From contig NC_135175.1 of assembly GCF_041146795.1 (NCBI RefSeq), positions 27,125,075 through 27,189,074 on the forward strand: DNA of 64,000 bases, written 5' to 3'. The DNA comes from Maylandia zebra (lineage: Eukaryota; Chordata; Actinopteri; Cichliformes; Cichlidae). Positions 5,526 through 47,400 of the stretch are shown here, piece by piece (position 1 is the stretch's first letter; each line of letters opens with the position of its first letter). The position numbers were made by a program, and so were the translations under genes. A model generated the notes under the pieces. It saw only the letters and a program-made list of their open reading frames with translations, was not told the DNA's origin and ran no database searches.

Positions 5526-8500
5526 TTATTCACTCTTTAACACATTAGTTACTAAACTGGTAAGTGTACTGTTTGGGTCCAGTATTACAACCAAAGGTAT
5601 ATTTACGCCTGTCTCCTGGAAAATCTTGTTCTGCAGAGTCATTGCTAACATCGAGTCAATCCCCAAAGCACACAGATTGGAGTCATGATCCAGTTCCTCT
5701 GCACTTACATTGATTATTTCACTCACAATATTCCTCACATGTTCATATGTGGAAGAACTTGGGATTTTGGGTTTGTTATGTACTTCATCTTTGAGCTCCA
5801 TTTCTACCAAAGGTAACAATCGCTTTCTGAGAGACCCATTTTGCGAAAGGACATGGATACTGAGATTTTTAAAGCTGAATTTGCATATTACCTGTTGGGG
5901 TCTGTTCATCAAAAGACTCTTTTTAAGTGTCTCGTGAACCTCACAAACATCCATTATCATCATCCCCTTTGCCTCTAGAAACTTTTGTAAATGATCTTTG
6001 TTCAGCAGGAGACCAAGGTTCAAAGGACCCCAGTTGATGGACTGTGCAGATAGGCCGAGATTTCGTCGATAATGGCAGAACAGGTCGAGGAAAGAATTGG
6101 CTGCACCATAGTTACATTGTGAGGCATTGCCAATGACTGATGAGATGGAAGAATAGCACACAAAAAAGTCCAGTTTGTTGTGCAGTGTTGCATAATGAAG
6201 ATTTAGAGCACCACAAACTTTGGGCTGCAGCACCTTTCTGAAGAGAGACTCATCAAGAGATTCAATCAATGCATCGTGCAACACTGCAGCACTGTGAAAC
6301 ACTCCTTTGATAGGGCAACAAGGGAATGTTTCACCAATTTTTGAAATTGCATCAACTACCTGCATCATCACAGAAACATCACACTGGATGTTTATGATAG
6401 CAACCCTGTATCTTTTCTGGAGGAGATCCATTTCAAACTGTGTTTTATCAGAAGGTCTTCTTCTTGACAGAGTTGCAATACAAGCTCCACCATTGTGGGC
6501 CAAAAACTTAACTGTCTCAAGACCCAAACCAGACAGCCCACCGGTTACGATATAAGTACAACTTTGTTTAAAGAGTTGTCTAGGCATTGCAAACATAGGG
6601 ATTTCAGATGCCAGGCTACACGATTCTTCATGGCCTAAAACTATTTGCTGCACTGTCTCTGTTGTGAAATAGGACTCAGGTTTTGTACGGGACCAGGACA
6701 CTTTTGAGTCTGAATACAGATACAACTCCCTTCTTAGAGGTAGAGATCCTGTATCAAAGCCTAATGATTTTAACCAGTTGCAGATATTCCTGCTTCGTGC
6801 TTGTAGATAAGCTTTCTGGAGAACATAATCCACATTGAGTTTATGCACATGAATGTGTTCGCTCTTTGGAGTAAACAATCTGTCTGAGACTGAGGGTGGC
6901 ATATGACTGCTAAACACGAAAATCATGTGTTTTTCAAGAGCCCCATTGTCATACATCTCCTGCCAAGCGGCATCAAATGGTGGCAAAAGAACGAATGCGT
7001 GACTCTCATCAAAACATGGAGGTTCTCCAGTGAAATGTGACTGAGAGGAAACACTCCAGCCTGACCTGGTTGCTGTGAGAGCCAGAACCTTCGTCAGAGC
7101 AGAGCCTGAGTTCGGGGAAACAATAGTCAACTTTCTGTGCTGCTTTTTATCTTCAAACAGTATGCTCTGCAAGATCTCCCATGCCAGTATGAAATAAGAC
7201 ACACATGGAGTCTCTTTTAGAAATGGAAATGTCTTAATGTTGTAGCACACTGCTTCAGGAATTACAATTTTTGAGGTGGCATGAACTGGGTAACATGACG
7301 CAATATGGTCTCCAACTCTCAGATTATTGACATTTTTCCCCACAGCTGTGACAATGCCACTGAAATCTAGAGCCAGAAGTCTGTGATTCAGTGATGTATG
7401 CTTGTTCCAGTACATTGCCTTACCAAAGATCAGTTGAGAAGTGGTCACAGGGAAGTAATCTGATGAATGCAGGCAAACACTGATTAGCTGAATTTCAGCT
7501 GTCTTCTCTTGGAGAGCTTTTCCATTAGTGTCACAGTGGGTGGCAGACAAATGGGCTATACTGTATGGATCAGTACTGTGTAGAACAAAGTCTCTTGGAT
7601 TCACTGAATGTGTTTCACCATCAAACAAAGCTTTATCTGTCAATCTGGTCCGTGCCATTTTTGTTACTGCTGCCTTCCCTTTACTGATCCAAACCTCTTG
7701 GTGTCTGCAGGTGTTTATTACCTGAGCAAGTGTTTGTATGTTTTCACTGGTCACAGAAGCAAGGTCAATCAGCTGAAAAGAAAGATCTGCCAACTCTGCT
7801 GCACAAGCCCTTATCATACCAGAAAGTGCAAAACCAGGGCTGATATGATCCACACACATTTCTGATGATCTGTAAGTAATGACATGGACAGAGCATGAGC
7901 GTTTGCTCTCTTTCACAGCCAGAACAATATGGTGAAAAATCTCACAACAAGTCATCAAGCAGTCCAGCATCTTTTCAGATGAAAGATGAGTGAGGTTATC
8001 AACACCCCAAAGGAAGAGAATATTTTCCACATCCACTCTGCTGGTGAGACACTGGAGCACTAAATTTCGAACTTGGTATGCCTTCAAGTGCTCTTTGCTC
8101 TCCACAGTGATTGATTCTGGGTGCAAATATGGCTCAAGTCCTTTAGCAATACAGAGGTTATCTTCAAAAACAATTGCTCTTATTTTGCCATTTTGCAATT
8201 CTTCTTCAACAGCAACTGCTTCATTTTGGAAGAACAGTGACTGGGAAACATTTGAGCTGCAGCCCACGAATGAAATCCTGACCCCCTTAAGTTCCACTAA
8301 TACGTTGCCCTCTCTTGTGGAAAAGCAACCGCACACATCAGTATAGTCAGGAGTTTCTTGAGTTGCTCGCAAGTACATAATCATTTCTTCCTGCAGTGGT
8401 GCTGATATGACTATATCTGTAATACCTGAAGGGAATCCCTGCTTGACTGTTAGCTGTCCCATTGCTAACATAGCAGTCATTTGCAGAAAATAGTCAAGCA

Positions 8501-11500
8501 GCACAGGATGAATAAAATAGTCATGAAGATGTTTCAGAAGATCACCAGGGACTTGAATTTCCATCACAGCTTCCTTGAATTCATCCCCAAAATGCACATC
8601 ATCAAGCTGTTTGAAAAGAGGGCCATACTCAAATCCTGCTTGAGAAAGAATTGAATAGATCTCATTTCTCGTCCAAACCAACTTGCACCGTTGGAAGATC
8701 ATTCGAGGACAAATGTTTGATTCCTCTAACAATGGCTTGATATCTTGATATGTGTACCTTCCAGAGGCATGCGTTGCATTAGAGGACTGTATTGCAAATG
8801 AGCCCTCCTTCTCTCCATGTTCTACTCTCACTTTCAGTTGTTGAGAGTGTGAGTTGAGTGTTAACACACTTTCAAATCTAACACTGAGATGGAGCTGGGT
8901 AATAGTTTTACGTGGCTTAAAACTTGCCATCACAGAGGCAAAAGCTAGTTCGACATAAAATGAACCCGGCACAATGGAAATGCTGTTGTTTTTATGCTCC
9001 CAAAGGTATGGCACGGTCTCTGAAGAGAGGTTGCTCATGAACTCTTTGTTATCCCTCTTTATCTGGGACATGAGTGTATGGGGAGTAAAGGAAGAATGCT
9101 CATCACCTTTCCGCACGGATTCAAAATTCAGGTCTTTCTTTGTGTTGTCAAACTGATAGACTGGAAGAGCTGTGGGCAATGTCTCCAAACCCCTGTATAG
9201 CTTATGCCAGTCCACGTTCATGCCAAGTTCAAATAGCTTTGCCACTGTTGAGAGGATTGTGCCATAATCCTTATCAGGGTTTGCGGTGGGAAGAACTACG
9301 GTATCATTGCCCAGGGTCTCACATATGTTCCTGTGGAGAGCCCTACGAGGTCCAATCTCCACAAAGACCACATTTCCCCTCGTCGACTTGTCTTTGATGG
9401 CAGCACGGAGCGTTTGTTCAAATAAAACAGGCTCTCGGATGTTCTTGGCCCAGTATGTGCCTGAGCTGAAATCACCATCTGAACATTTGTCTCCAGTCAC
9501 TGTTGAAAACAGTTTGCACTCTATGTTGTTGGTATCTAAAACATCTATTCTTCTCTTAATGTCCTCTAATACTGGATCCATCATGTGGCTATGGTAGGCT
9601 GCTGGAACATCTAAGACATGAAGGAAGAGAGTTTCATCTTTAAAGATGCTCTTCAGCCTCTCATGGAGGGTGTCTATGGCATCAGCATCTCCTGACAGAG
9701 TGCAGGACTGAGGGCTGTTAAAAGCAGCTACACTAATTTTCCCAGTAAAGTTCGGAAGAATTTTTAATACCTTATCTACAGCCACATTGCCAACCACGAG
9801 CATTTTCCCTCCTTTGACTTTGCCCTGGAGAGTACTACGGTGGTACAACACCTTGACAGCATTGTCCAGAGACAAGAGACCTGAGCAGTGAGCAGCAGCA
9901 ACCTCTCCAACTGAGTGGCCAAGCACGGCATCAGGTTTAATACCCCAGTGTTTCAAAAGAGTAGCAATGCTGACCTGAATCGCAAATAGAAGAGGTTGCA
10001 CAACATTTGGCTCATTGAAATCATTGTTATCATGCTCACTAGAAAGCCATCTACTCATGCTGAAAGATCCATGACTCTGGAAGAGAGTCTCAATTTCTCT
10101 CACCTTATCACTGAAAACAGGAAGCTTACTCATTAGCTGCCTGCACATCCCCTTGTAGGCAATCCCATTTCCACAGAACACAAAGACTACCTGGATGTTA
10201 GACCTTACTGCCTGAACCTTAGCCTTCAGTGCAGACATTAACTGGTGTTCTAAATCTGAGAGAGAAGATATTAGGAAGGCCTTTCTATATTTGTGTTTGT
10301 AATGACTTCTTCTGCACGCTGAGGTGTATGAGAGTGCCTGCAAATCAACTGACTGGTTCCTGCAAAGTCTTTCATGGGTGTCACTGATGGACAGGCTTAA
10401 TGATTTCTCAGACGCTGCAGATATGACAAAGACTTTTGTACAGTCTTTCGGTGTTGGAGAGGGAACTGTAGCATTTGTATACTGTCTTACAATTACATGT
10501 GCATTTGTACCCCCAAACCCAAAGCTGTTGATCCCAGCCACCCTTCCCATTGGCCCATTTGTCTCCCACCTAACAGATTTAGTTGGAATACTCAGATTCA
10601 AGGCTTTTACATCTATACTTGAACTATCTTCAGAGTAGAAAACTGAGGGAACAATAGTGCTGTACTTCATCATTAGCAGTACCTTAATGAGTCCAGCAAC
10701 TCCAGCTGCAGATTCTGTGTGTCCAATGTTGCCCTTTAGAGACCCAATCAGAAGTGTCTCAGAACGAGTGGGTTTAGCAATGACATTCGAGATGCTTCCC
10801 GCTTCTATTGGGTCTCCAACAAGGGTTCCTGTCCCATGTGCCTCTATATATTGAACGTTCATGATGTCGGAGTTAGAGTAGATTCTTCTCAGCAGCTCCT
10901 CTTGCTGAACCATGGAGGGTTTGGTGATTGGAGTGACGGAGTGCCCATCTTGATTGACTGCTGTCTTGCTGATAACACCCCATATTTTGTTGCAGTCTCT
11001 TAAAGCCTTGACAAAGAAAGTCACATCATTAGAAGACTGGATAGTATCTCAATTATATAAAACTACTTGACACTAAAGATCAAATCATCAACCTACATGT
11101 TTCAAATGCTTGAGAAGTACTACACCACAGCCCTCTCCCCTGCCATAGCCATCTGCATGGGCGGAAAAAGGTTTGCTTGTTCCTTCAGGTGAGATCATGC
11201 TTGCCTGTTTGAGGGCAACAAATACCTTCGGCTCAATTATACAGCTAACTCCTCCACATAGTGCCATTTCACAGTCTCCTGGTTGAAAGAAAGGTCGTTA
11301 AATAATTAATTTGTATACATCATCCAATAGTTTATTTTTTTGGCAGCCAAGCATAAGTATATTACCATGCTTTATAGCCTGGCTGGCTACATGAAGAGCC
11401 ACCAAAGATGATGAGCAGGCGCTGTCGATGGCAAAAGAAGGGCCAGTCAGATTGAAGGTGAAGGAAATCCTGTTGGCTGCAAGACTCATGGCCGTCCCAG

Positions 11501-13251
11501 TGCCATTGTAGTGGGTTATTGTGCCAGGGCTATTATTTCTGAGCATCTCATAATCCCTGTTCATAAGACCTGCAGCAGCACAGTCACAATCAAAACAGAC
11601 TTAAAATTGCTGGATTTTTAAAATTGCTAAGGATTTTTAATGTATCATAGATGGTAGCAAGAGTACCTATGTAGACACCAGTTCTGGTTCCACTGATGCT
11701 TTCCATAGCTATTCCTGCATCTTCTAATGCCCTGTAGGTACACTGCAGCAGAAGTTTCTGCTGAGGGTCCATGAAGTCAGCCTCCGATTCAGTAATACCA
11801 AAAAACTTGTAATCAAACTCATTAAACCTAGAATATAAAATAAGTAGATCCATCATAATTCAAAAATTTCAAAGAAAAAAATAACTTAATTAAACTTTTA
11901 TATCTTGTAGGTAACAAAGAAATAATACAGTTTACTAATCACTGGTCATTTGTAATTTATGTCACTTTGTTAGTAGTTTGTGTTATACACAATACTTTAC
12001 AAATCCTGTATTGTGTCATAGCTAACAACAGACACTTCCATTTACATTCTGATGCAAAGCTGTTGTTGCATACAAATTTTATTAATGTTACTGTATTATG
12101 TTTTTGTTGACCTTTACCAAACATTTTTGTCATTGTGTTAAACCAAAAACAAAACAAGTCAAAAACAGGCCATTACTAACTTCAACTGTATCCACTTTTT
12201 TTTGTCCTGAAAGGCTTAGATTAAGCCTATTTCTGTCCTTTACTCTGAGGGCTGTGCACCACACAGCAGCTTTTAAGTGTGTTAATTGTTAACTAGCAGG
12301 CAAGGAGGCACTCAGGTCATACAAACTCAAAGGACAACCATGAGTTGTTTCCCATCCAGAAAATACAAAGTTTTACACCCACCAGGTTAAACTTCATAAT
12401 TGTCCTTTAAGGTTTACAAATTGTAATCAATAAATTTGGTACATTTAACAATTTAACGATGTATCATAACTATAAGCTGCAGCTTTATGATCTCATCTAA
12501 ACATAATATAACAATATAAGATAAAAGCACAATAAAAAATATATAAAATATATGAATAAAATAATATAATCTTTATAATGCTTGTTATGAATTATTATAT
12601 TATGAACATTGTAAATATGAATATAAACATAACACATAACATTTTAAATTACAAGCCAACTAGCCATTAGTTTACAACGTAAACTCATAAATGTTACATC
12701 AAAGCTTACAAATGATTAGTAATTAACCAATTAATTGTGAATAAACAGTCTAATAATTTTATTACATTGTAATTACTGACTGCCAACAAACTAAAAGCAA
12801 CAACATCAATAAGAATACTAACATTTCAGTTTCAATTATTTTTTTTTCGTTAACAACTTAATAACAAATTAACAATGAGTTTGCCATTTATTAAGAGTGG
12901 TTAAAACATTTTAAAACTCACCCTTCTATTAGGGCTGCTTTGGTTGTCTGTATCTTCCCAGGTTTGTTACCTTCTGCATCATACCAAAGAGTGGTGTCAA
13001 ACCTTTCAGCTGGAATATCCACCACACAGCTCTTTCCCTCCAACAGAACCCTCCAGAATCTGTCCACCCCCTCACCTAAAATATAAAGTATCACAACAAC
13101 CTGAGTATACATTATCTTAGAATTTCGACCTTTGGAGAAAAAAAAATGCAGATATTCAGTATTGCTTTAAATGGTGTCAAAATGAGGTTGTACCTCCGGG
13201 AAAATTGCATCCAATCCCAATAACAGCTATGTCATCATCAGCGTCCTCCAT
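5526..13251 (-). CDS. Complete animal type I polyketide synthase (KS-AT-DH-psiKR/ER-KR-ACP)
   Basis: Six coding exons: 13251-13194, 13075-12922, 11827-11667, 11569-11366, 11278-11097 and 11006-5526. All junctions are GT-AG and in frame, giving 2079 residues. The start is the ATG that directly precedes the KS motif AVIGIGCNFPGG. KS: Cys176 in DSACSSS, His310 in EAHGTGT, His349 in GNIGHTESAAG. AT: Ser618 in GHSVGE, His725 in AAYHS; an aromatic residue before this His resembles malonyl- rather than methylmalonyl-selective enzymes (inference). DH: His924 and Asp1091 (HPVLLDY), but the usual HxxxG glycine is Ser. Pseudo-KR about 1290-1370. ER-like about 1433-1727 with a GroES-type DFSGIVTAVGK but no dinucleotide glycine motif. 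KR from about 1736 with VTGGLSGLG, YSSIS and NYGAAN. ACP Ser2038 in GIDSM. There is no thioesterase, so release must be in trans or by another route. One 5.5-kb exon encodes everything from the KS histidines onward. It is convergent with its paralogue at 1-3367. The substrate and product cannot be read from the sequence. Confidence 0.95.
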
Positions 13252-28600: not shown

Positions 28601-29952
28601 TTATTAATTCAAATGTTAACACATTGAGGGCAGTGTCGCCTGGCAGTTGCACAATGCCATTTTGTAGCTTGATCGCTGCTATTTGACTTCTGTGACATGG
28701 ATTTATTTATCTATTGTCTTATTCGCTCAGTAGTAGAGACTTATAACTGTAATCATGGTTTTAAGTCTGTGCAGCTATCGAGAACTAAAAAATAAGTCTT
28801 GAGAAGCACAACGTTTGCAGGCACCCTGTTTGTTTTACCCTCAATTAACTCTGCCTGTTTTAATTGACATCAAATTTTAATACAAACCAATCCTAATGAT
28901 TTGTTTTTAGGTTTTTGTATGTGAGAATGAAAGAATGTTTTCTTCCCCAGTACTCAGTATCTAACGTAGTCCCTGCTTTTGCCACTGCGGTGCAGTTAGT
29001 GTGCACTCTAACAGAAATCACAGGGAAAAGTGAGGCGTTTGAGGCCCACGGCTGTACAAAAATGTGACTATTCCTTCTTCTTTTGTTGTTGTTGTTGTCG
29101 TCGTCTACCCGGGCAGACTTCATGGTGGATTGGTGGGCGCTTGGTGTGTGTCTTTTCGAGTTCCTCACAGGTGTGCCGCCATTCAATGACGAGACGCCCC
29201 AGCTGGTCTTCCAGAATATTCTGAACAGAGGTGGGTTTGCTCTTCTCTTCCAACCCTCAAACACAAAACCATCTAAAATATGTAACTCATTAAGCTTCTT
29301 CTCGATTACCAACACGCCTACGTTACTATCAACTATTGTAGATATACCCTGGCCTGAGGGGGAGGAGGAGTTATCTGTAGACTCCAGGAATGCCATTGAA
29401 ATCCTGCTGACCATGGACATGACAAAGCGCGCTGGCTTAAAAGGTAGAGACCACCTTTCAAAATAAAAGACCAAAAGAGAAAGAAACAATTGGCTTTATA
29501 AATAACTATCCCATGAAGTGAAAATTTCAACAGTATTTGTCATCCAAACAGAAATAAAGACATCAATAAAAATACAAATTATTATATTTTTTAAACATGA
29601 ATAAATAAGGAAAAATGTAATATAAATACAGAAAATTCACCCCATTTTAGAACTGATTAACTTAACATAAAATACTTATACCGACTTTAGAAGTTGGAAG
29701 TTAATTTGGACCTATGTTCTCAAAAACAAAAGAAGAAGAAGAAATGGGCTGTTGTGTGTTTTGCTGTTTGTCATTTGCCTATATTTTCCATTAGAACTGA
29801 AGTGCCACCCCCTGTTTCACGGCCTGGACTGGGACAACCTGCAGAACCAGCCGATGCCTTTCATACCTCAACCAGACGACGAAACCGACACCTCTTACTT
29901 TGATGCGAGAAACAATGCTCAGCACATTGCCGTGTCCGGCTTCAGTCTTTAG
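24539..29952 (+). CDS. mastl: Microtubule-associated serine/threonine kinase-like, Greatwall kinase
   Basis: Twelve coding exons: 24539-24709, 24795-24932, 25014-25153, 25244-25332, 25423-25529, 25678-25837, 26203-26351, 26487-27557, 27898-28039, 29117-29230, 29342-29443 and 29795-29952. They total 2541 nt, 846 residues; all sites are GT-AG. The N-lobe has the glycine loop [10 protein letters not shown] (36-45) and catalytic Lys57 in YAIK. HRDLKPDN is at 149-156 and DFG at 169-171. About 540 residues of non-conserved insert then split the activation segment before GTPDYLAPE (707-715), the hallmark of Greatwall. Most of this insert is one 1071-nt exon rich in Ser-Pro and Thr-Pro. The C-lobe has [20 protein letters not shown], and the protein ends in [12 protein letters not shown] and SGFSL. 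The family phosphorylates ENSA/ARPP19 to inhibit PP2A-B55 at mitotic entry. It is head-to-head with yme1l1. A poly(A) signal lies at 30501-30506. Confidence 0.97.
25582..25637. repeat. (TG)n microsatellite in mastl intron 5
   Basis: About 28 uninterrupted TG units on the coding strand, ending about 40 bp before the acceptor of the exon at 25678. Likely length-polymorphic. Confidence 0.95.
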
Positions 29953-32349: not shown

Positions 32350-33490
32350 TCAGTTGATTCGTCTTTTGGAGAAAAAGAAAAAGGAAAAAATGAAATTAGT
32401 TAATATCAGAAATACCTGAAAAGTGTGGGACACTTTACAAAAGCAAAGACTTTTTTTTTTTTTTTTTAAACCTTCTTAAAGTCAGACAATCTTTTAAGCA
32501 CTTTATAGCAAAACCACTGTAGCCAAAGAAATGGAGTGAACCTCATATGAGTCAATACGATTTTAGTAAGATTAAAAAACAAACCAAAAAACTTCCACTC
32601 ACTCATCTTTATTGTTAACGACCGAGGAAAAGTCTGTTAAGTGCAGGTTGTGAATTTTCACCTAATTTTGGACTATGTGTGTTGTCCATATATTTCTTAC
32701 CTTCTCCTCCTCTGCAAGTATAGGCGGATAAGCCACTGTACCACAAATGGCCATATAAGAGCAAAGGCCAAACTGGTTGGTGAAATGTCAAAAGGCCACC
32801 AGGACGGTTTCTAGGAGGACAAAAAATATACATTGCTATTACAAATGAAACTTGTTAACTTCTAATAATGAACACATGGTTTAAATTAATTGAATCAGCT
32901 GGAAATTCAGTAGATTGTTTTCAAAAATTTAATGAAGACTGCAACCGTTTACCTGACTCCTATTATTCACTGGGGGAGATGCATAAGTAGGAGACAGAGC
33001 CACTGATCTTGCCTGCCAAAAGAAAGAGTTCATAATCTGTCATTATGGGTACATTTAAAAAGAAAGAACTTATATTTATTTTATTAGTGATTTATTAAGC
33101 AATTCATTTAACCTTTATGAGATTTAATTTAAGAAACTATTTTATTGAGCTAGTCTGTTTTTTTTATATTTGTTTGCTGTCAAAGTGATTTCCCAGCTTT
33201 TGGGATAACTGAAGTATATCTTATCTTAAATTTCTAAAGCCACATAGAAATCTATATATTATATATTTTTAGGGCCCGAGCACTGACAGTGCGAAGGCCC
33301 TATTGTAATTGCTCTGTTTATTATTATTATTAGGGCCCGAGCACCGAGAGTGCGAAGGCCCTATTGTATCTGCTCCGTTTCTTATTAGGGCCCGAGCACC
33401 GAGAGTGCGAAGGCCCTATTGTATCTGCTCCGTTTCTTATTATTAGGGCCCGAGCACTGACAGTGCGAAGGCCCTATTGTAATTGCTCTG

Positions 33491-33538
<48 letters not shown>

Positions 33539-35447
33539 TCGGCAAATGAATTGGCCGTTTGAGGGCCTAAACATGCTCAAAAACTCATGAAATTTTGCAC
33601 ACGCGTCAGGTCTGGTGAAAATTTACGTATTTTAATGTTCTCAGACATGGCCAGGGAAAATTAGCTCAGTAGCGCCACCTAGAAAAATGAAAAACGCGAG
33701 CCCCCGGTATGGGTATGACCTACATGTTTGAAAGTTGGTACACCTATATAAAGTTCAGAGTCGAACAAAAAAGTCTATTATGGCAATGTCCTAAACCCAA
33801 CAGGAAGTCCGCCATTTTGGATTGAAGGTGACATTTTGGGTCTGATTTTATCGTTTCCATGCCTTGTACTTTAACGAACTCCTCCTTGGGATTTGGTCCT
33901 ATAAACTTCAAATTTGGACAGTGTCAACTACACCCTTGTGCCATGTTAAATTGCGGAGCTTTTGAGTTTTCACAATACTATGAGGCCGTGGCGCCATGGC
34001 GAATTTTGATGACTCGCCATGAAAATCTTATTGCCTCTCATTCTGTCATACATGTTCCGATCTGGACCAAAGAGCACACATATGATAAGGCTCCACCCCT
34101 GAACATATTTCAACTGCCATATTTGACATCAAGGACAGCGCCACCTAGTGGGAACAGGAAATGTCATGTTTTACACTTTGGGGTACAGTATAGTGATGGG
34201 TGACATCTGCAGCCTCAAATTTCTCCAGGAAAGCCTTAAGGAGTTGGTCTTGGGTTACAGTGAAAACTGTGACTTTTCGCAAAAGGGTGTGACCCCAGCA
34301 GCATGGCGAACTTTGATGTCACGCCATGAAGAAACAAATTAGTATAACTCAATGAAATCCAGTCTGATCAGTACCAGACTTTACAGGCATGATGTCAGAC
34401 CCGCCCTGAACAGATTGATGTGCCCATTGTCGGAAATACCCACAGCGCCACCTAGTGGCAACAGGAAATTTCATGGCTTTAATTTTGTTGTACTGATTTT
34501 CACAGGTTCATCTTGGCCACCTCAAAAGCGGTGAATATCACCATCAGTCCCTCGTGATGCTTCAGTGCAAAAATTGTGACTTTAAACTGAACGGCGCACC
34601 CTGGTGGCAACGCTGTTCACCATGAAAGATGAAGTGGCTTTTGAGGGTCTTGGCAAGTTTATAGAGGCTTGAAATTTGGCACACACCTCCAAATGGATGA
34701 AGGCTTTGTTGGCATGTGATCATTTTCATTGAATAGTGCGAAATTGCTCCACAGCGCCCCCTACAAAATTTCAAAACCACAGCCCCTGCTCTGTGTTCTA
34801 TGTATGATTCTGAAACCTGGTAAGCTTATAGGAGATATCAAGATGTACAAAAAAGTCTCTTGGTGCAATATCCCAAATCCAACAGGAAGTCAGCCATTTT
34901 AAAATGAATGTGCAATTTTGGCAACATTTTGCCCTCTTTCCAGGCACCGTTCTTTGACGAACTCCTCCAAGGGATTTCATTATATTGAACCAATCTCCAG
35001 TGTGTGGAATCTAAAGACCTTTGTGATGTTAAATTGCGAACGTTTTTACGTTCAGGGAAACGGGGTGGTCATGGCGGCACGTGGAGTTTCAGTCACTCGC
35101 CAAAAAGCAGTAATCTGCTGTCACTCAAAATCAAAATGTCCAATATGTCCCAAAGGTCGCAGGCGTGATGAGACTCGAGCTGGGAAATGTTTGTTATGCC
35201 ATTTGTCAGTAATGGTTAGAGCGCCACCTAGTGGGACGACTATAATCATGATTGAATGAGATGAAATGTTAGCTGGTGGTTGAATGCATGAATTTCATCA
35301 ATGTGACATCAGATCGGACGTGCTGGTTGTAGGTGTTGGGCGTAGCTCGACGCGATGGGGTGCGAGGGCCCTCATAACGCTGCTTGCAGCTTTAATTAGG
35401 GCCCGAGCACTGAGAGTGCGAAGGCCCTATTGTATCTGCTCCGTTTC

Positions 35448-35481
<34 letters not shown>

Positions 35482-38400
35482 CCCCAAACAAGGGCCTTTT
35501 TGAGGGCCTAAACATGCTCAAAAACTCATGAAATTTTGCACACATGCCAGGTCTGGTGAAAAATTTTGTATTTTAATGGTTTTACTTATGAGCACTGGGA
35601 AATGGCTCTAGAGCGCCACCTATGCCTTGTTAAATGCAGCCCTACGACCACATCGTTTGAGCTACATGTATGAAATTTGGCACACATGTGTATCATGCCA
35701 AGACGAACAAAAAAGTCTGTGGGCCCATTGACGCAAACCCAACAGGAAGTCCGCCATTTGGAAGAGAAGGTGACATTTTGGCTCTAATTTTGCCATTTCC
35801 ATGCCTCGAACTTTTGCGAACTCCTCCTTGGGATTTGGTCGTATAAGCTTCATCTTTGGACAGTGTCAACTACACCCTTGTGCCATGTTAAATTGCGGAG
35901 CTTTTGAGTTTTCACAATACCATGAGGCCGTGGCGCCATGGCGAATTTCGATGACTCGCCATGAAAATCTTATTGCCTCTCATTTTGTCATACATTTTCT
36001 GACCTTGACCAAAGTGAACACATATGATAAGGCTCCACCCCTGAACATATTTCAACTGCCATATTTGACACCAGGGACAGCGCCACCTAGTGGGAACAGG
36101 AAATGTCATGTTTTACACTTTGGGGTACAGTATTGTGATGGGTGACATCTGCAGCCTCAAATTTCTCCAGGAAAGCCTTAAGGAGTTGGTCTTGGGTTAC
36201 AGTGAAAACTGTGACTTTTCGCAAAAGGGTGTGACCCCAGTGGCATGGCGAACTTTGATGTCACGCCATGAAGAAACAAATTAGTATAACTCAATGAAAT
36301 CCAGTCTGATCAGTACCAGACTTTACAGGCATGATGTCAGACCCGCCCTGAACAGATTGATGTGCCCATTGTCGGGAATACGGACAGCGCCACCTAGTGG
36401 GAACAGGAAATGTCATGGCTTTAATTTTGTTGTACTGATTTTCACAGGTTCATCGTGGCCACCTCAAAAGCGGTGAATATCATAATCAGTCCCTTGTGAT
36501 GCTTCAGTGCAAAAATTGTGACTTTAAACTGAACGGCGCACCCTGGTGGCAACGCGGTTCACCATGAAAGATGAAGTGGCTTTTGAGGGGCTTGGAAAGT
36601 TTAAAAAGTCTTGAAATTTGGCGCACACCTCCAATGTGGTTAAGGCTTTGTTGTTATGTGATCATTTTCATTAAATATCCCAAAATGGCTCCACAGCGCC
36701 CCCTACAAAATTTCAAAATCACAGCCCCTGCTCTGTGTTTTATGTATGAGTCTGAAACCTGGTAAGCTTATAGGAGATATCAAGATGTACAAAAAAGTCT
36801 CTTGGAGCAATATCCCAAATCCAACAGGAAGTCAGCCATTTTAAAATTAATGTGCAATTTTGGCAACATTTTCCCCTCTTTCCAGGCATCGTTCTTTGAC
36901 GAACTCCTCCAAGGGATTTCATCATATTGCACTATTCTTCAGTGTGTGGAATCCAAAGACCTTTGTGTTGTTAAATTGCGAAGCTTTTTACGTTCAGGGA
37001 AACGGGATGGTTATGGCGGCACTTAGAGTTTGAATCACTCTCCAAAAAGCAATAATCTGCTGTCACTCAAAAACACAATGTCCAATCTCTCCCAAACGTC
37101 CAAGGTGTGATGAGACTCGAGCTCGGAAATGTTTGTTATGCCATTTGTACATAATGGTTAGAGCGCCACCTAGTGGAACGACTAACTAATCATGAATGAA
37201 TGAGTTGAAATGTTAGCTGGTGGTTAAATGCATGAATTCCATCAATGTGACATCAGATCGGACGTGCTGGTTTTAGGTGTTGGGCGTGGCTCGACGTGCC
37301 GGGGGTGCGAGGGCCCTCATAACGCTGCTTGCAGCTTTAATTATTATTATTATTATTCAGGCGAAACAAGGGCCTTTTTGAGGGCCTAAACATGCTCAAA
37401 AACTCATGAAATTTTGCACACATGCCAGGTCTGGTGAAAAATTTTGTATTTTAATGGTTTTACTTATGAGCACTGGGAAATGGCTCTAGAGCGCCACCTA
37501 TGCCTTGTTAAATGCAGCCCTACGACCACATGGTTTGAGCTACATGTATGAAATTTGGCACACATGTGTATCATTCCAAGACGAACAAAAAAGTCTGTGG
37601 GCCCATTGACGCAAACCCAACAGGAAGTCCGCCATTTGGAAGAGAAGGTGACATTTTGGCTCTAATTTTGCCATTTCCATGCCTCGAACTTTAACGAACT
37701 CCTCCTTGGGATTTGGGCGTATAAGCTTCAAATTTGGACAGTGTCAACTACACCCTTGTGCCATGTTAAATTGCGGAGCTTTTGAGTTTTCACAATACCA
37801 TGAGGCCGTGGCGCCATGGCGAATTTCGATGACTCGCCAAGAAAATCTTATTGCCTCTCATTTTGTCATACATTTTCTGACCTTGACCAAAGAGCACACA
37901 TATGATAAGGCTCCACCCCTGAACATATTTCAACTGCCATATTTGACATAAGGGCCAGCGCCACCTAGTGGGAACAGGAAATGTCATGTTTTACACTTTG
38001 GGGTACAGTATAGTGATGGGTGACATCTGCAGCCTCAAATTTCTCCAGAAAAGCCTTAAGGAGTTGGTCTTGGGTTACAGTGAAAACTGTGACTTTTCGC
38101 AAAAGGGTGTGACCCCAGCAGCATGGCGAACTTTGATGTCACGCCATGAAGAAACAAATTAGTATAACTCAATGAAATCCAGTCTGATCAGTACCAGACT
38201 TTACAGGCATGATGTCAGACCCGCCCTGAACAGATTGATGTGCCCATTGTCGGGAATACGGACAGCGCCACCTAGTGGGAACAGGAAATGTCATGGCTTT
38301 AATTTTGTTGTACTGATTTTCACAGGTTCATCGTGGCCACCTCAAAAGCGGTGAATATCACCATCAGTCCCTCGTGATGCTTCAGTGCAAAAATTGTGAC

Positions 38401-41400
38401 TGTAAACTGAACGGCGCACCCTGGTGGCAACGCGGTCCACCATGAAAGATGAAGTGGCTTTTGAGGGGCTTGGAAAGTATATAGAGGCTTTAAATTTAGC
38501 ACACACCTCCAAATGGATGAAGGCTTTGTTGTCATGTGATCATTTTCATTGAATAGCACGAAATGGCTCCACAGCGCCCCCTAAAAAATTTAATAATCAC
38601 AGCCCCAGCTCTGTGTTTTATGTATGAGTCTGAAACCTGGTAAGCTTATAGAAGATATCAAGATGTACAAAAAAGTCTCTTGGAGCAATATCCCAAATCC
38701 AACAGGAAGTCAGCCATTTTAAAATTAATGTGCAATTTTGGCGACATTTTCCCCTCTTTTCAGGCTTCATACTTTGACGAACTCCTCCAAGGGATTTCAT
38801 CATATTGAACCATTCTCCAGTGTGTGGAATCTAAAGACCTTTGTGATTTTAAATTGCGAAGCTTTTTACGTTCAGGGAAACGGGATGGTCATGGCGCCAC
38901 GTGGAGTTTGAATCACTCGCCAAAAAGCAGTAATCTGCTGTCACTCAAAAACACAATGTCCAATCTCTCCCAAAGCTCATAGGCGTGATGAGACTCGAGC
39001 TCGGAAATGTTTGTTATGCCATTTGTACATAATGGTTAGAGCGCCACCTAGTGGAACGACTAACTAATCACGAATGAATGAGTTGAAATGTTAGCTGGTG
39101 GTTAAATGCATGAATTCCATCAATGTGACATCAGATCGGACGTGCTGGTTTTAGGTGTTGGGCGTGGCTCGACGCGCCGGGGGTGCGAGGGCCCTCATAA
39201 CGCTGCTTGCAGCTTTAATTATTATTATTATTATTATTCAGGCGAAACAAGGGCCTTTTTGAGGGCCTAAACATGCTCAAAAACTCATGAAATTTTGCAC
39301 ACATGCCAGGTCTGGTGAAAAATTTTGTATTTTAATGGTTTTACATATGAGCACAGGGAAATGGCTCTAGAGCGCCACCTATGCCTTGTTAAATGCAGCC
39401 CTACGACCACATCGTTTGAGCTACATGTATGAAATTTGGCACACATGTGTATCATGCCAAGACGAACAAAAAAGTCTGTGGGCCCATTGACGCAAACCCA
39501 ACAGGAAGTCCGCCATTTGGAAGAGAAGGTGACATTTTGGCTCTAATTTTGCCATTTCCATGCCTCGAACTTTTGCGAACTCCTCCTTGGGGTTTCATTT
39601 CATAACCTTCAAATTTGGACAGTGTCAACTACACCCTTGTGCCATGTTAAATTGCGGAGCTTTTGAGTTTTCACAATACTATGAGGCCGTGGTGCCATGG
39701 CGAATTTCGATGACTCGCCATGAAAATCTTATTGCCTCTCATTTTGTCATAGATATTCTGACCTTGACCAAAGTGAACACATATGATAAGGCTCCACCCC
39801 TGAACATATTTCAACTGCCATATTTGACATCAAGGACAGCGCCAACTAGTGGGAACAGGAAATGTCATGTTTTACACTTTGGGGTACAGTATAGTGATGG
39901 GTGACATCTGCAGCCTCAAATTTCTCCAGGAAAGCCTTAAGGAGTTGGTCTTGGGTTACAGTGAAAACTATGAGTTTTCACAAAAGGGTGTGACCCCAGC
40001 AGCATGGCGAACTTTGATGTCACGCCATGAAGAAACAAATTAGTATAACTCAATGAAATCCAGTCTGATCAGTACCAGACTTTACAGGCATGATGTCAGA
40101 CCCGCCCTGAACAGATTGATGTGCCCATTGTCGGAAATACGGACAGCGCCACCTAGTGGCAACAGGAAATGTCATGGCTTTAACTTTGTTGTACTGATTT
40201 TCACAGGTTCATCGTGGCCACCTCAAAAGCGGTGAATATCACCATCAGTCCCTCGTGATGCTTCAGTGCAAAAATTGTGACTTTAAACTGAACGGCGCAC
40301 CCTGGTGGCAACGCGGTTCATCATGAAAGATGAAGTGGCTTTTGAGGGGCTTGGAAAGTTTATAGAGGCTTGAAATTTGGCACACACCTCCAAATGCATG
40401 AAGGCATTGTTGTTATGTAACCATTTTCATTGAATAGCGCGAAATGGCTCCACAGCGCCCCCTACAATATTTCAAAACATCAGCCCCTGCTCTGTGTTTC
40501 ATCTATGAGTCTGACACTTGGTAAGCTTGTGTAAGATATCAAGATGTACAAAAAAGTCTCTTGGAGCAATATCCCAAATCCAACAGGAAGTCAGCCATTT
40601 TAAAATTAATGTGTAATTTTGATGACATTTTCCCCCCTTTTCAGGCATCATACTTTGACGAACTCCTCCAAGGGATTTCATCATATTGAAGCATTCTTCA
40701 GTGTGTAGAATCTAAAGACCTTTGTGATGTTAAATTGCGAAGCTTTTTCCGTTCAGGGAAACGGGGTGGTCATGGCGGCACGTAGAGTTTCAATCACTCG
40801 CAAAAAGCAGTAATCTGCTGTCACTAAAAAACACAATGTCCAATCTCTCCCAAAGGTCGCAGGTGTGATGAGACTCGAGCTTGGAAATGTTTGTTATGCT
40901 ATTTGTCAATAATGGTTAGAGCGCCACCTAGTGGCATGACTATAATCCTGGTTGAATAAGATGAAATGTTAGCTGGTGATTAAAAGCATGAAATCCATCA
41001 ATGTGACATCACATCGGACGTGCCGGTTTGAGGTGTTGGCAGTGGCTCGACGTGCCGGGGGTGCGAGGGCCCTCATAACGCTGCTTGCAGCTTTAATTAT
41101 TATTATTATTATTATTCCGGCAAATGAATTGGCCGTTTGAGGGCCTAAACATGCTCGAAAACTCATGAAATTTTGCACACGCGTCAGGTCTGGTGAAAAT
41201 TTACGTGTTTTAATGTTCCCAGACATGGCCAGGGAAAATTAGCTCAGTAGCGCCACCTAGAAAAATGAAAAACGCGAGCCCCCGGTATGGGTATGACCTA
41301 CACGTTTGAAAGTCGGTACACCTATATAACGTTCAGAGTCGAACAAAAAAGTCTATTATGGCAATGTCCTAAACCCAACAGGAAGTCCGCCATTTTGGAT

Positions 41401-44400
41401 TGAAGGTGAGATTTTGGGTCTGATTTTACCATTTCCATGCCTTGTACTTTAACGAACTCCTCCTTGGGATTTGGTCCTATAAACTTCAAATTTGGACAGT
41501 GTCAACTACACCCTTGTGCCATGTTAAATTGCGGAGCTTTTGAGTTTTCACAATACTATGAGGCCGTGGCGCCATGGCGAATTTCGATGACTCGCCATGA
41601 AAATCTTATTGCCTCTCATTCTGTCATACATGTTCCGATCTGGACCAAAGAGCACACATATGATAAGGCTCCAGCCCTGAACATATTTCAACTGCCATAT
41701 TTGACGTCAGCGACAGCGCCACCTAGTGGGAACAGGAAATGTCATGTTTTACACTTTGGGGTACAGTATTGTGATGGGTGACATCTGCAGCCTCAAATTT
41801 CTCCAGGAAAGGCGTAAGGAGTTGGTCTTGGGGTACAGTGAAAACTGTGACTTTTCACGAAATGGTGTGACCTCAGCAGCATGGCGAACTTTGATATCTC
41901 GCCATGAAGAAACAAATTAGTATAACTCCATGAAATCCAGTCTGATTAGTACCAGACTTTACAGGCATGATATCAGACCCGCCCTGAACAAATTGATGTG
42001 CCCATTGTCAGGAATATGAAGAGCGCCACCTAGTGGGAACAGGAAATGTCATGTCTTACACTTTGTTGTACTGATTTTCACAGGTTCATTGTGGATACCT
42101 CAAAAGCGGTGAATGTCACCATCAGTCCTTCATGATGCTGCAGTGCAAAAATTGTGACTTTATACTGAACGGCGCACCCTGGTGGCAACGCTGTTCACCA
42201 TGAAAAATGAAGTGGTTTTTGAGGGGCTTGGAAAGTTTAAAAAGTCTTGAAATTTGGCCCACACCTCCAATGTGCTTAAGGCTTTGTTGTTATGTGATCA
42301 TTTTCATTGAATATCCCAAAATGGCTCCACAGCGCCCCCTACAAAATTTCAAAACCACAGCCCCAGCTCTGTGTTTTATGTATGAGTCTGAAACCTGGTA
42401 AGATTATAGGAGATATCAAGATGTACAAAAAAGTCTCTTGGAGCAATATCCCAAATACAACAGGAAGTCAGCCATTTTAAAATTAATGTGCAATTTTGGC
42501 AACATTTTCCCCTCTTTCCAGGCACCGTTCTTTGACGAACTCCTCCAAGGGATTTCATCATATTGAACCAATCTCCAGTGTGTGGAATCTAAAGACCTTT
42601 GTGATGTTAAATTGCGAAGCTTTTTACGTTCAGGGAAACGAGGTTGTCATGGCGGCACTTAGAGTTTGAATCACTCGCCAAAAAGCAGTAATCTGCTGTC
42701 ACTCAAAATCAAAATGTCCAAACTCTCCCAAAGGTCGCAGGCGTGATGAGACACGAGCTAGGAAATGTTTGTTATGCCATTTGTCAGTAATGGTTAGAGC
42801 GCCACCTAGTGGGACGACTATAATGATGATTGAATGAGATGAAATGTTAGCTGGTGGTTAAATGCATGAATTCCATCAATGTGACATCAGATCGGAGGTG
42901 CTGGTTGTAGGTGTTGGGCGTGGCTCGACGCGATGGGGTGCGAGGGCCCTCATAACGCTGCTTGCAGCTTTAATTGATATTGGTTTTTTTTGCAAAAATT
43001 TTACTTCCTTTTTGTAAATGTTATTAAGCGGAGCAGTTAGCGGATTCCAACAAGCTAACTTTTAAATGAATGTCTTTTGCAAACTCCTTCTGGGTAAACA
43101 GTAAGCATCAACAGAAGCTGAAGGTTCTTTGTGTCCAAGGTCTGGACCGTGGCTAAAAAAATATATATTTATTTGCTTTATACACACAGAACTCATCCTG
43201 TGCTACATCCTGAATATGATACAAACTTCTGTTTGTTTTCTTAGAGTCATCTCTCCCAGTAACTATTATTTCAGCTGCTTTTCCACTTCGTCTACAAATC
43301 TGCAACATCTCTTTCTCAGAAACCATTTCTTGTGAGTTACTGGCCTTATCCACTTGCAAGTAGCCTTTAAGTCCTTATTATTCCATGTCCTTTTCCACTG
43401 GCACCAAAAGATGGTGACAGGTTAACCTGCAGTTTTGGATGAAAAGTGTCTGTCAGGCCATGTTAACTTTTTAATATTAGAGTAAATCAAAATATGGGAC
43501 ATTATCTAAATGTGTGAGACAGGATGGAAATGAATGATATTCAGTCCCACCTGAAGTGGGATACCTGATCGTCCTAATGAATTCAATACAGCAAAATATG
43601 GCCAGATGCATTTCATCTACCTCACATCAACGGCGAATTACAAATGACTGATTAACTGAACATGTCTGTTTTTGGACTGTGGGAGGAAGCAGCAATACAA
43701 AGAGGAAACCCGCGGAGGCACACGGAGATCCTGCAAACTCCACACAACAAGTGCTAACCACTGCACTGCTGTTTTATGTCAATAGTCTTATTAAGACAAG
43801 GTTCTTGGTTCTTGAAACAAAGACCAGTTCTTATATATAATTTATATAAAAAAATCCATGTAGTTTAGCATAATTCACCACTACGTGCATCATATTTGAA
43901 TTCAGCTCTTCAAACTGTTGCCTTTCACTTGTTTTATTTATGACACTATGACCACCTGTGTTTCCCTTCTCTGTCCTAATGTCACTGTGTATAAAGTGTA
44001 ACCACTGCTGTTTGAACTGCAGCCAATTTTGGACAGGAGACTCTTGCACAATCCCAGCTTCCTGTTAAAATGAAATACACATAAAAATAAACCTGTAGCA
44101 TTATGATAAGAAAGCACCTACTGTATAGAGAGGTTACTTAGTTAGCTTCAAGTTTTGTTTACTTTGTCTTCTTCAATATTTTACAGTAAGTTATTATCCT
44201 GTCACTAGCCAGCTGTCCAGTCCTGTAGCTGATGCTACTTTATTTAATAGATCACTGAAGATAATTAAAATTGCCTAAACATTATAAAATGAGTAGTACA
44301 ATCAAATTCCATTGCCAGCTCATTTTACTCACCATAGATAGCTTAACATTGCTGTCAGCCTTGCAGTCTAAACCGCAGAAAGCCACCACGAGTAGTTTAA

Positions 44401-47400
44401 TCATTTGCAGTATAGTTCTAAGTTTACATATAGTGTAATTATGACAGGAAATTTTGATTTAGATTTAGTCATAGTTTTTTGACTAAAATGTCATAAGATT
44501 ATGTGTGTGTGTGTGATTATTGTCGCTTAAATCTAAAGCTGATTTAGTTAAATAAAACAAAAAGTTGTAAAAGTTTGCCGTGTTTTTACAGAGGAGAGCT
44601 TCACATGACTTACAAAGTTTTTTTCCTGACATCAAATGTGAAATGTGTCCGTATGCCTAGTCGAGTCAAATATGCATGTCTGTCCTTACTGCACTAGATT
44701 AATTTTCAAAGAATTATTATTTTTAAATAAATTGTAAATAAATATAAATGATGAATAAAATAAAAATAAAATAATACTGACATTTTTAAAAAAGGCAAAA
44801 AATAAAAAAAGAGAAGGTGAGCTTACTCTTTTTTTTTTTTTCTACACAACTTACTTAGCTCTGATTGGCTGTCACCTCGCCAGACTATTTTCATCTCATT
44901 GTTATACGCTGACAAAAGTGTATGTGCACTTTATCATAGTTTTCTCTTTATGCATTAATTTTTATTTAGCCATTACCTTGTTTACATCAGGAAAAAAATA
45001 AATAAATAAATAAATAAATAAAAGGTTGTTATTTTACTGATCAACGATCAATGACATTGACACAGCTATGTTTATATTTAAAAAAATAGTGTTATATTTA
45101 ACTTGCTTATAAAGACCAGAAAGTATTCACACAGAGTGGAAAGATGTAGATAACACTTGATGTTATCTATTATTTTTTCTTAGTTAAGCCTCAAAGAAGC
45201 CACATTGTATTTTTTGTTTCGAGTCACTTTCATTGAATATCATCAGACCTGGCTTGCAGTTAGAGCCTCCAGTGTGTGCAGTCTCTCCAGGACGCTCTGC
45301 ATGTCCTCCTGCAGTCTGGCCAGCGCCACGACGATCTGCTCATTCAGGTTCGCTCCAGGTGTTCCTGCACCTCCCCAGTGGCCCCCGTCTCCATCTCCAG
45401 CACTGTGCATGGGCATCTGAGAACCAGAGCGAAGGCCTGGAGACCTGGAGCCTAAAAATAGAACGGAATTTGAATAACTGACACATGCTCGGGTGTCAGC
45501 GCATACAATGGAATGACAGTCTTTGTGACACTGAAAGGCCACTAAATGGAAAAACAAAAGCCACACAGAGCTGCCGGCTCCACAGAATCATGCTGTCATC
45601 CTTGTGATTGCATTTCATAACATTTAAATGTGAGTGTAAAACCCTGTGAATGCAGCCTTACCCCTTCCTCTTCTGACTGAAGAGCCACCAGGCACAGTCA
45701 CATTCAGCCTCTGTGACATTGCTCCACCTGCCTCTCCATCTTCTCCTCCACATCTGACAACCTGCAATGGACCCTGTACATCCTCCTGAGTCTCCCGTCT
45801 CTCCTCCAGAGGCGGCTGGAGGTGGTTCTCTTCTTCATCCAAATCATCCAGAGAGCGGTTATGCTCCGAGTTCTTCAAAAAAACAACAAGATGAGTAAAA
45901 AACAGTCCAGTTGGCTAAACCCAGCTGATATTTCTGTGATGTTTAAGTTTTTACTTGCCTCTTCCTGTCCGAACTGGTCCACAGAGTCACAGTACACCTC
46001 GCTGTCTGAGTCGCTGGTCAGGTGACTGGGTGCAGACGCAGCTACACTTGGATCTAATGTCATTACAAAGAGGGCAAAAGGGCACACAAAACTCAAGACT
46101 TGTTCTCCATTATGATGACTAGTCTGCACTGTAATTACCAGAGTGACAAAGAGGAAGTTCACTGAATTAGGGGCTTTTTCCTCAGTTTCTACAGAACCAT
46201 TAATTTTCTCCATTAAGCCTGTCCCAGGAGCAGCGGATGTGTTAAGTGTTGAGATTCAATGTGTGCTGCAGCTCTGGGAATGAAGCTTAGCAGATTATCT
46301 GATCACATGGTGCTCAGACAGCTTGAGTGTTGGTGAGTCCTCAATGACTGTTTTGGACCGCTGTAGGGATGTACTGTGGGCTGAAACAGAGCCCTATGTT
46401 GGAATATCGGTTTTCCTACCTGGATTGTGTCCGTTGAGCAGAGGCTCGCCAAGTGAACCCTCCTGGGACTTGTCGCTGTTCAGAGCAGCTCTGGAATGAC
46501 TGCCATTGGTCAGATGGGTGGCCCCGTTAGCGACTTTACCGTTTGACAGCGGAGCTTTTTGTCTCCTAGCTAAAGTTTTCTTCTTTGGTTGTGATGGTCC
46601 AGATTTTTTGTCTGTGGAAAAAATATAGAAGATAGAGGAAATCTGCATCTAACATGTAATAATGTCATTTCAGATATTCATACTCAAAAGGAGCAACTTT
46701 GTTACCTTTTCTGACCTCCCTTGTCACCATTTCTTCTTCTTCTTCTTCCTCCTCCTCTTCATCCTCCTCATCGTCATCTTCCTCCTCCTCCTCCTCATCA
46801 TCATCCTGCAGCGCATCTTCCTCTGACCTCACTTCCTTCTGTTTAAGCCTTGCAGGCCGTGTCTCCAGAGTGCCGTTCATTTCCATGTTTCTAACAATGC
46901 TCTTTGCGACACTTTTTGATGCCATTGAATTCATCATTGTGCCAAACCCTACAGACACACACACACACAAACAGAAAGAATTTTATAAGCTCACGAATAC
47001 TTGCTTAAGATGTTAACATATTAAAATGAAATGTGTCCATTTCTGATTGTAAGGGGAACCTTAACTGTGGTAAGCTACAAGCAAGCTTTCTATGACTGCT
47101 AATAAGGACTCAAAGCATCTGAGCTACAACACCAGACAGGAAGTAAAGTATATCAACAGACCCGTGTGTTTACACAGTAATGTACTTGCCTTCCAGTTGC
47201 CTAGCAAACTGAGTCAAACGGGCTGAGCGTATAACAAGAGGCAAAAAAAGAGGTTAAACTCCACATCACAAAGTAAAACGTGTGGGCAATCCACCTGGCG
47301 AGGAAACACCAACCTGTGCTCAGGTCTGATATCTGCGCGATCTTTTTCTTTTCGTCCACCAGCTCGTAGAACGGGCCGAGGACCTTTAACAGCTCCTCCA

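Follow-up and report, generated by a model that had tools for sequence, protein, structure and literature searches.

A same-direction array of CTCF-like sites in the last coding intron of acbd5 in Maylandia zebra, probably built by nested insertion of a Helentron-like element

The best-known arrays of CTCF motifs that all point one way belong to single loci, Dxz4 being an example. The mouse Dxz4 array is one-way and separates two superdomains, and its direction matters (PMC5899087). In human cells only divergent CTCF triplets were found enriched at the boundaries of topologically associating domains, and same-direction triplets were not (PMC7422557). The locus described here lies in a window of 64,000 nucleotides of the cichlid Maylandia zebra (contig NC_135175.1, positions 27,125,075 to 27,189,074) and consists of five tandem units of a repeat, placed within an intron of acbd5, that carry 20 CTCF-like sites of one orientation. 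Like the DXZ4/Dxz4 macrosatellite, it is formed of tandem units each with same-direction CTCF motifs (PMC5899087). In contrast to the macrosatellite, the arrays of this repeat are dispersed over many loci, point to a mobile-element origin and have four putative sites per unit.

Two further systems offer partial parallels. The zebrafish transposable elements (TEs) SINE3-1a and HATN9_DR carry CTCF sites, of which 1016 and 647, respectively, were inferred to be bound (PMC9341505); these too are fish TEs bearing CTCF sites, but they belong to other element families, and the main text of that paper contains neither Helitron nor tandem. McGurk and Barbash, as told in PMC12628747, described TE dimers that form through insertion-site preference, so that repeated insertion at a preferred site makes tandem DNA. 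The target proposed here differs in being the element's own internal (TTA)n tract, and the arrays differ in their bracket-like order and in reaching 30 units among the places listed. Literature searches with sequence words of the repeat and with Helentron combined with CTCF gave no match; among the papers listed for CTCF, Helitron and fish none dealt with such arrays, judged by title or abstract start, and a search joining teleost CTCF to Hi-C, satellites, tandem repeats and transposons yielded a single paper, on newt. As far as these searches show, the Helentron-like carrier, its share of the genome's CTCF cores and the bracket-like growth of one-way arrays are new.

Motif content of the array

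The sequence GCGCCACCTAGTGG is present between 34138 and 42812 in 14 exact copies and one copy with a single mismatch, 15 of 15 on the plus strand, against a chance expectation of 0.11 at up to two mismatches; all five copies of CCACCAGGGTGCGCC are on the minus strand. The window was scanned with the 19-bp CTCF matrix MA0139.1, and all 20 sites were recovered in the minus-strand CTCF orientation with p = 1e-9 to 2e-6. Nineteen of them score 19.5-25.2 and the remaining one 15.6, the matrix maximum being 29.3. The window outside the array has a single weak match at p<1e-5, and 100 dinucleotide shuffles of the array gave a mean of 0.4 matches and a maximum of 3, as opposed to the 20 real ones. 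The 20 sites are not independent, because they come as four per unit of a five-unit tandem repeat.

At long periods, Tandem Repeats Finder (TRF) reports a single array (33518-42975, period 1878, 5.0 copies). The unit measures ~1.88 kb; the spacing from unit to unit is 1877-1881 bp in three cases and 1942 bp in the fourth, and identity among the five units is 88-96%. Per unit there are three GCGCCACCTAGTGG cores (with one mismatched core among the 15) and one GGCGCACCCTGGTGG, together with two shorter boxes lacking a full site, which makes six GCGC-type boxes altogether. The unit is itself an old internal duplication, whose halves are ~62% identical across 809 columns and both retain GCGC-type boxes.

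The array occupies the last coding intron of acbd5, a minus-strand gene that spans it (splice signals place the bounding exons with one ending at 45249 and the other starting at 32810). A preliminary description of this DNA had counted 14 exact, one single-mismatch and five second-type sites, all in one orientation and inside one intron, and had proposed that the repeat may spread CTCF sites and that it be compared with shuffled sequence. The recount gave the same numbers, the scan bore out the common orientation and the excess over shuffled sequence, and the splice signals agree with a single intron; spread of the sites is supported by the genome counts given below. The CTCF interpretation stands as regards a strong motif, one direction, one intron and spread. 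The placement of the array between mastl and acbd5/abi1 was mistaken, since the end of mastl is near 29952 and the array falls within acbd5.

Growth of the arrays and spread of the element

That the array represents five nested insertions of one young, non-coding element is strongly supported by its structure, and nested self-insertion of a mobile element is in our judgement very probable. Each copy would begin with a hairpin head at its 5' end, continue with a (TTA)n tract and a body of ~1.86 kb, and finish in a palindromic tail at its 3' end, and new copies would enter the (TTA)n tract of a resident copy, between its head and its body. Because the tract would set the orientation of the incoming copies, the array would have a single direction, with bodies and tails accumulating rightward, heads leftward, and all facing the same way. 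Insertion between head and body implies that heads stack before the first body, that none stands before the last, and that heads and tails balance. As the body carries four high-scoring sites, every insertion would add four CTCF-like sites in the same direction.

The order of heads (H) and tails (T) is in keeping with this scheme. Heads and tails balance exactly in the window array (Table 1) and in the array at 43.8 Mb of contig C1, whose word by exact matches is HHHTHTTHTT; the other words are HHHTTHTTTHHTTHTT, HHHTHTTHTHTHTTHTHTT and HHTTT, and six solo copies read HT. Across seven arrays the first body is preceded by 4, 3, 3, 2, 6, 4 and 5 heads and the last body by none (7 of 7), while the 50 internal bodies have a mean of 0.66 heads before each (Mann-Whitney P=7e-6 and 0.011). 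Simulated nested insertion always produced at least two heads before the first body and none before the last, with internal values of 0.66-0.98. Where a head and a body adjoin directly, their types agree in 36 of 37 cases, and the one discordant pair is consistent with an old copy (L031).

Genome counts were obtained from the 962-Mb assembly with plus- and minus-strand counts summed. Exact 5' heads number 1065+585 = 1650 and exact 3' tails 1060+610 = 1670, and the 14-mer GCGCCACCTAGTGG occurs 3075+1794 = 4869 times, its reversed control never. The sequence CCASYAGRKGGCRS, which we take to be the CTCF core consensus, has 10,916 matches, ~200 times more than the 52 of its reversed control, and the 14-mer makes up 44.6% of them (4,869/10,916). 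Of the first 100 14-mer places listed, four lay outside the element when checked; since the other 96 were assigned by adjacency to tails and not individually read, the share of cores within the repeat is an estimate, and one repeat family seems to hold ~40% of the genome's perfect CTCF cores. In 20 stretches chosen by their tail and not by the motif, taken with the window, 266 strong sites fall in 125.6 kb of element, as compared with one in the 128 kb outside it. Contig C1 has 58 exact tails, which resolve into 10 loci of 1, 9, 1, 1, 1, 1, 10, 26, 3 and 5 units, and the longest array among the places listed has 30 units (contig C2, 10.7 Mb).

CTCF-core matches other than the 14-mer number ~6,000 in the genome. 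Two motif-bearing places outside the element, L053 and L054 (C1:38.96 and 38.99 Mb), are 26 kb apart; the motif and an identical 134 bp surrounding it are inverted between the two.

Site retention and competing explanations

The 20 stretches and the window gave 75 aligned copies, 56 of them at least 1800 bp long. These 56 full units contain 221 strong sites, all on the minus and none on the plus strand, an arrangement that resembles DXZ4; 53 units have four sites and three have three. When the substitutions were slid along the unit with relatedness kept, a mean of 24.4 units retained four sites against the 53 observed (P=0.0155), and core substitutions numbered 32 against 150.7 (P=0.020). Conservation is higher in the boxes than in the sequence flanking them (P=0.001), and in the five window units alone 1 of 56 box columns is variable where 9.2 were expected (P=0.009). 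The proportion of copies with an intact site is 97, 90, 80 and 73% for the four sites. The sites were likely under constraint while the element spread.

On the reading we prefer, CTCF would bind at least part of the copies; that some copies are occupied is an even bet. The array would stall cohesin arriving from the lower-coordinate side, as mouse Dxz4 does, and bring about one-sided loop anchoring within acbd5. Under the convergent rule, minus-strand sites anchor loops towards lower coordinates, so anchoring would be directed to the mastl/yme1l1 side. A real boundary or loop anchor at the acbd5 locus is, taken separately, unlikely. As a whole, nested insertion of a HINE-like element with putative CTCF binding and one-sided anchoring is the best explanation, to which we assign a probability of roughly 0.6. 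The wider proposition, that a self-targeting transposon builds Dxz4-like one-way CTCF arrays genome-wide, holding ~40% of canonical cores and acting as stepwise one-sided anchors or as a CTCF sink, is put forward tentatively and may well prove wrong.

If the arrays bind CTCF, they constitute a natural series of graded length (1-30 units among those listed, ~4-120 sites, in both genome directions) that could serve as a dose series for the number of same-direction sites against insulation and loop anchoring. The nested-bracket grammar of heads and tails would be a readable record of satellite-like DNA arising from self-insertion of a mobile element.

Several observations weigh against this combined reading. 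Five of the seven arrays with at least three units and all ends read lack one to four heads, the ratios of heads to units being 7/9 (C1 2.2 Mb), 9/10 (C1 37 Mb), 2/3 (C1 42 Mb) and, counting exact matches only, 22/26 (C1 41 Mb) and 27/30 (C2 10.7 Mb); loss of heads between repeats would explain the deficit. Head and body pairs that are not adjacent but inferred by nesting agree in 14 of 18 cases, with a permutation P=0.18, so this finer pairing test is not decisive. The four sites rank in the 59th-93rd percentile of all 14-mers, other stretches being equally conserved, and in the old copy L031, at 75-81% identity, four of the five boxes covered are lost or altered. Motif CpGs do not show significantly fewer transitions than the remaining CpGs of the unit (P=0.24), on which result CpG protection was rejected as proof of CTCF binding. 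When unit sites 1 and 2 are counted together with element flank, C to T change at the motif CpG occurs 19 times genome-wide, as compared with two non-CpG C to T changes in the motif and five non-CpG G to A changes in the flank; some germline methylation of the motif CpG is therefore likely, which speaks against an unmethylated motif. The human triplet data (PMC7422557) urge caution regarding a strong one-way boundary.

The tandem order itself could have been produced by ordinary tandem duplication, that is, unequal crossing over of a single inserted copy with the CTCF match as a passenger, a process favoured by the near-constant unit spacings and for which the (TTA)n tracts supply homology. 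The units of an array, however, are not mutual nearest relatives: mean unit divergence is 0.0678 within and 0.0679 between arrays, the nearest relative lies in the same array for 4 of 56 units (shuffled mean 9.9%), and in these 56 units the closer kinship within than between arrays that characterizes a classical satellite was not found. Moreover, among shared blocks that reach 1200 bp and 98.5% identity, 17 of 19 join different arrays, and heads are clustered at the left edge rather than placed one per unit. On the divergence, block-sharing and head-order results, local tandem duplication was rejected as the main cause, and we hold it to be quite improbable. Rolling-circle read-through, in which concatemers from one transposition are inserted whole, has been described for arrays of plant Helitrons (Xiong et al., summarised in PMC12628747), and would account for a 3989-bp block common to two arrays that spans two bodies, with a head at its start and a tail at its end; some multi-unit moves evidently occur besides single-unit ones. 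Many of the plant arrays, according to the same account, have several 5' ends but one 3' end, as opposed to the 1650 heads and 1670 tails counted here, and 16 of the 17 between-array blocks do not exceed one unit (13 are one unit long, at 1877-1912 bp, and three are shorter), although the 9.9-kb length of the stretches cut some of them short. Read-through as the source of the arrays is unlikely.

Regarding function, the matches may be real CTCF motifs that are kept methylated and unbound within silenced repeat DNA. The CpG decay described above speaks for this, while the outlasting of shifted controls by the sites and a CpG retention of 97-100% at five of six boxes and 79% at the sixth (65-70 copies), in a young family, speak for the contrary; silencing is a serious contender, if somewhat short of even odds. 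Alternatively, the conserved box may serve the element itself, in replication, through a transposition protein or another zinc-finger protein, and its likeness to CTCF be incidental. The presence of six GCGC-type boxes per unit and their preservation between its two old halves accord with such a role, but the match extends beyond a short box, 19 of the 20 window sites scoring 19.5-25.2 of 29.3 over 19 bp, and the same 14-mer is found at four places outside the element. Such a role with an incidental CTCF match appears rather doubtful.

Element affinities and features of the window

HINE/Helentron elements possess subterminal inverted repeats, a 3' palindrome, micro- and minisatellites and T-rich insertion (PMC4067079). 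The present element is similar to this DINE-1 type in having subterminal inverted repeats that contain GGGCCC at both ends (5' TTAGGGCCCGAGCACC and 3' GGTGCGAGGGCCCTCATAA, the inverted match judged by eye), a 3' palindrome (all 21 tails shown have CTGCTTGCAG at a distance of 8 nt from the end), a TTA/T-rich left flank (TTA, TAA or TTT closes 11 of the 12 outer left flanks shown, L031 differing), and micro- and minisatellites without a detected coding domain. Heads were found in 18 of 19 stretches, the degraded L049 among them, and tails in all 19; the 5' head folds strongly (z -5.4) and the 3' palindrome weakly (z 0.35). The differences are that the 3' subterminal repeat is 24 nt from the end, instead of the 38-60 bp reported for mite families (PMC4067079), that no autonomous partner with these exact ends was found on C1 and C2, and that the arrays have nearly balanced heads and tails. 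The element is probably a young, non-coding, rolling-circle element of Helentron/HINE-like kind, a label that describes its structure and is not proof of membership.

A coding element was rejected, since the two unit open reading frames tested gave no Pfam match at E up to 1, as was a known RNA family (0 Rfam matches at gathering score for 33000-43600). The genome contains 124 Helitron_like_N (PF14214) matches, and the majority have long open frames; for none of the 21 on C1 and C2 is there an exact head or tail at 25 kb or less, inexact ends not being searched and the other 103 matches not examined. A 117-bit match of the rarer long-frame group at C6:14976824 (minus strand, 2984-residue frame) is 11 and 26 kb from site copies of the element at C6:14965310 and C6:15002589 (plus strand), and is a possible lead to an autonomous partner. 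Helitron_like_N matches also occur in same-strand clusters with 14-46 kb spacing (C3:34652689-34699968, C3:57792402-57894134 and C20:22575471-22630458, all plus strand), in which 10 of 12 have open frames of at least 2400 residues, as if coding Helitrons formed one-way clusters as well.

Table 1. Coordinates of the array, its parts and the adjoining acbd5 exons in the window
Feature	Position	Strand	Remark
Complete array of five heads, five bodies and five tails, order HHHHTHTTTT	33269..42975	+	
Four stacked 5' heads (TTAGGGCCCGAGCAC...) at 33269, 33330, 33385, 33443	33269..33500	+	Also reported by TRF; second head folds as hairpin, z -5.4
(TTA)n tract, proposed nested-insertion target	33492..33538	+	Model
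Unit 1, body type B	33539..35395	+	
Internal 5' head	35396..35450	+	
Unit 2, body type A	35480..37341	+	100% identical over 1885 bp to unit near C2:42.57 Mb
Unit 3, type A	37357..39220	+	
Unit 4, type A	39238..41098	+	
Unit 5, type B	41116..42975	+	Array terminates ...CTGCTTGCAGCTTTAATT
Fifteen CCACTAGGTGGCGCT-type CTCF-like sites	34136..42815	-	14 exact cores, variant at 39839-39852
Five CCACCAGGGTGCGCC CTCF-like sites (34593, 36535, 38413, 40294, 42171)	34592..42188	-	
acbd5 last coding exon (...LQRRRR, stop)	32700..32810	-	Named by likeness to the ACBD5 C-terminus
acbd5 preceding exon, end part, then GT donor	45249..45323	-	

The gene around the array is presumably acbd5, as recognised from its acyl-CoA-binding exon near 49.1 kb and C-terminal exon near 32.7 kb. 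The identity of mastl is supported by greatwall kinase structures, which are its best matches. A large polyketide synthase gene occupies 5526-11600 on the minus strand, with KR, acyltransferase, ketosynthase C-terminal, dehydratase and carrier domains in 5526-11048; it adjoins mastl and a Peptidase_M41 gene, which we take to be yme1l1-like.

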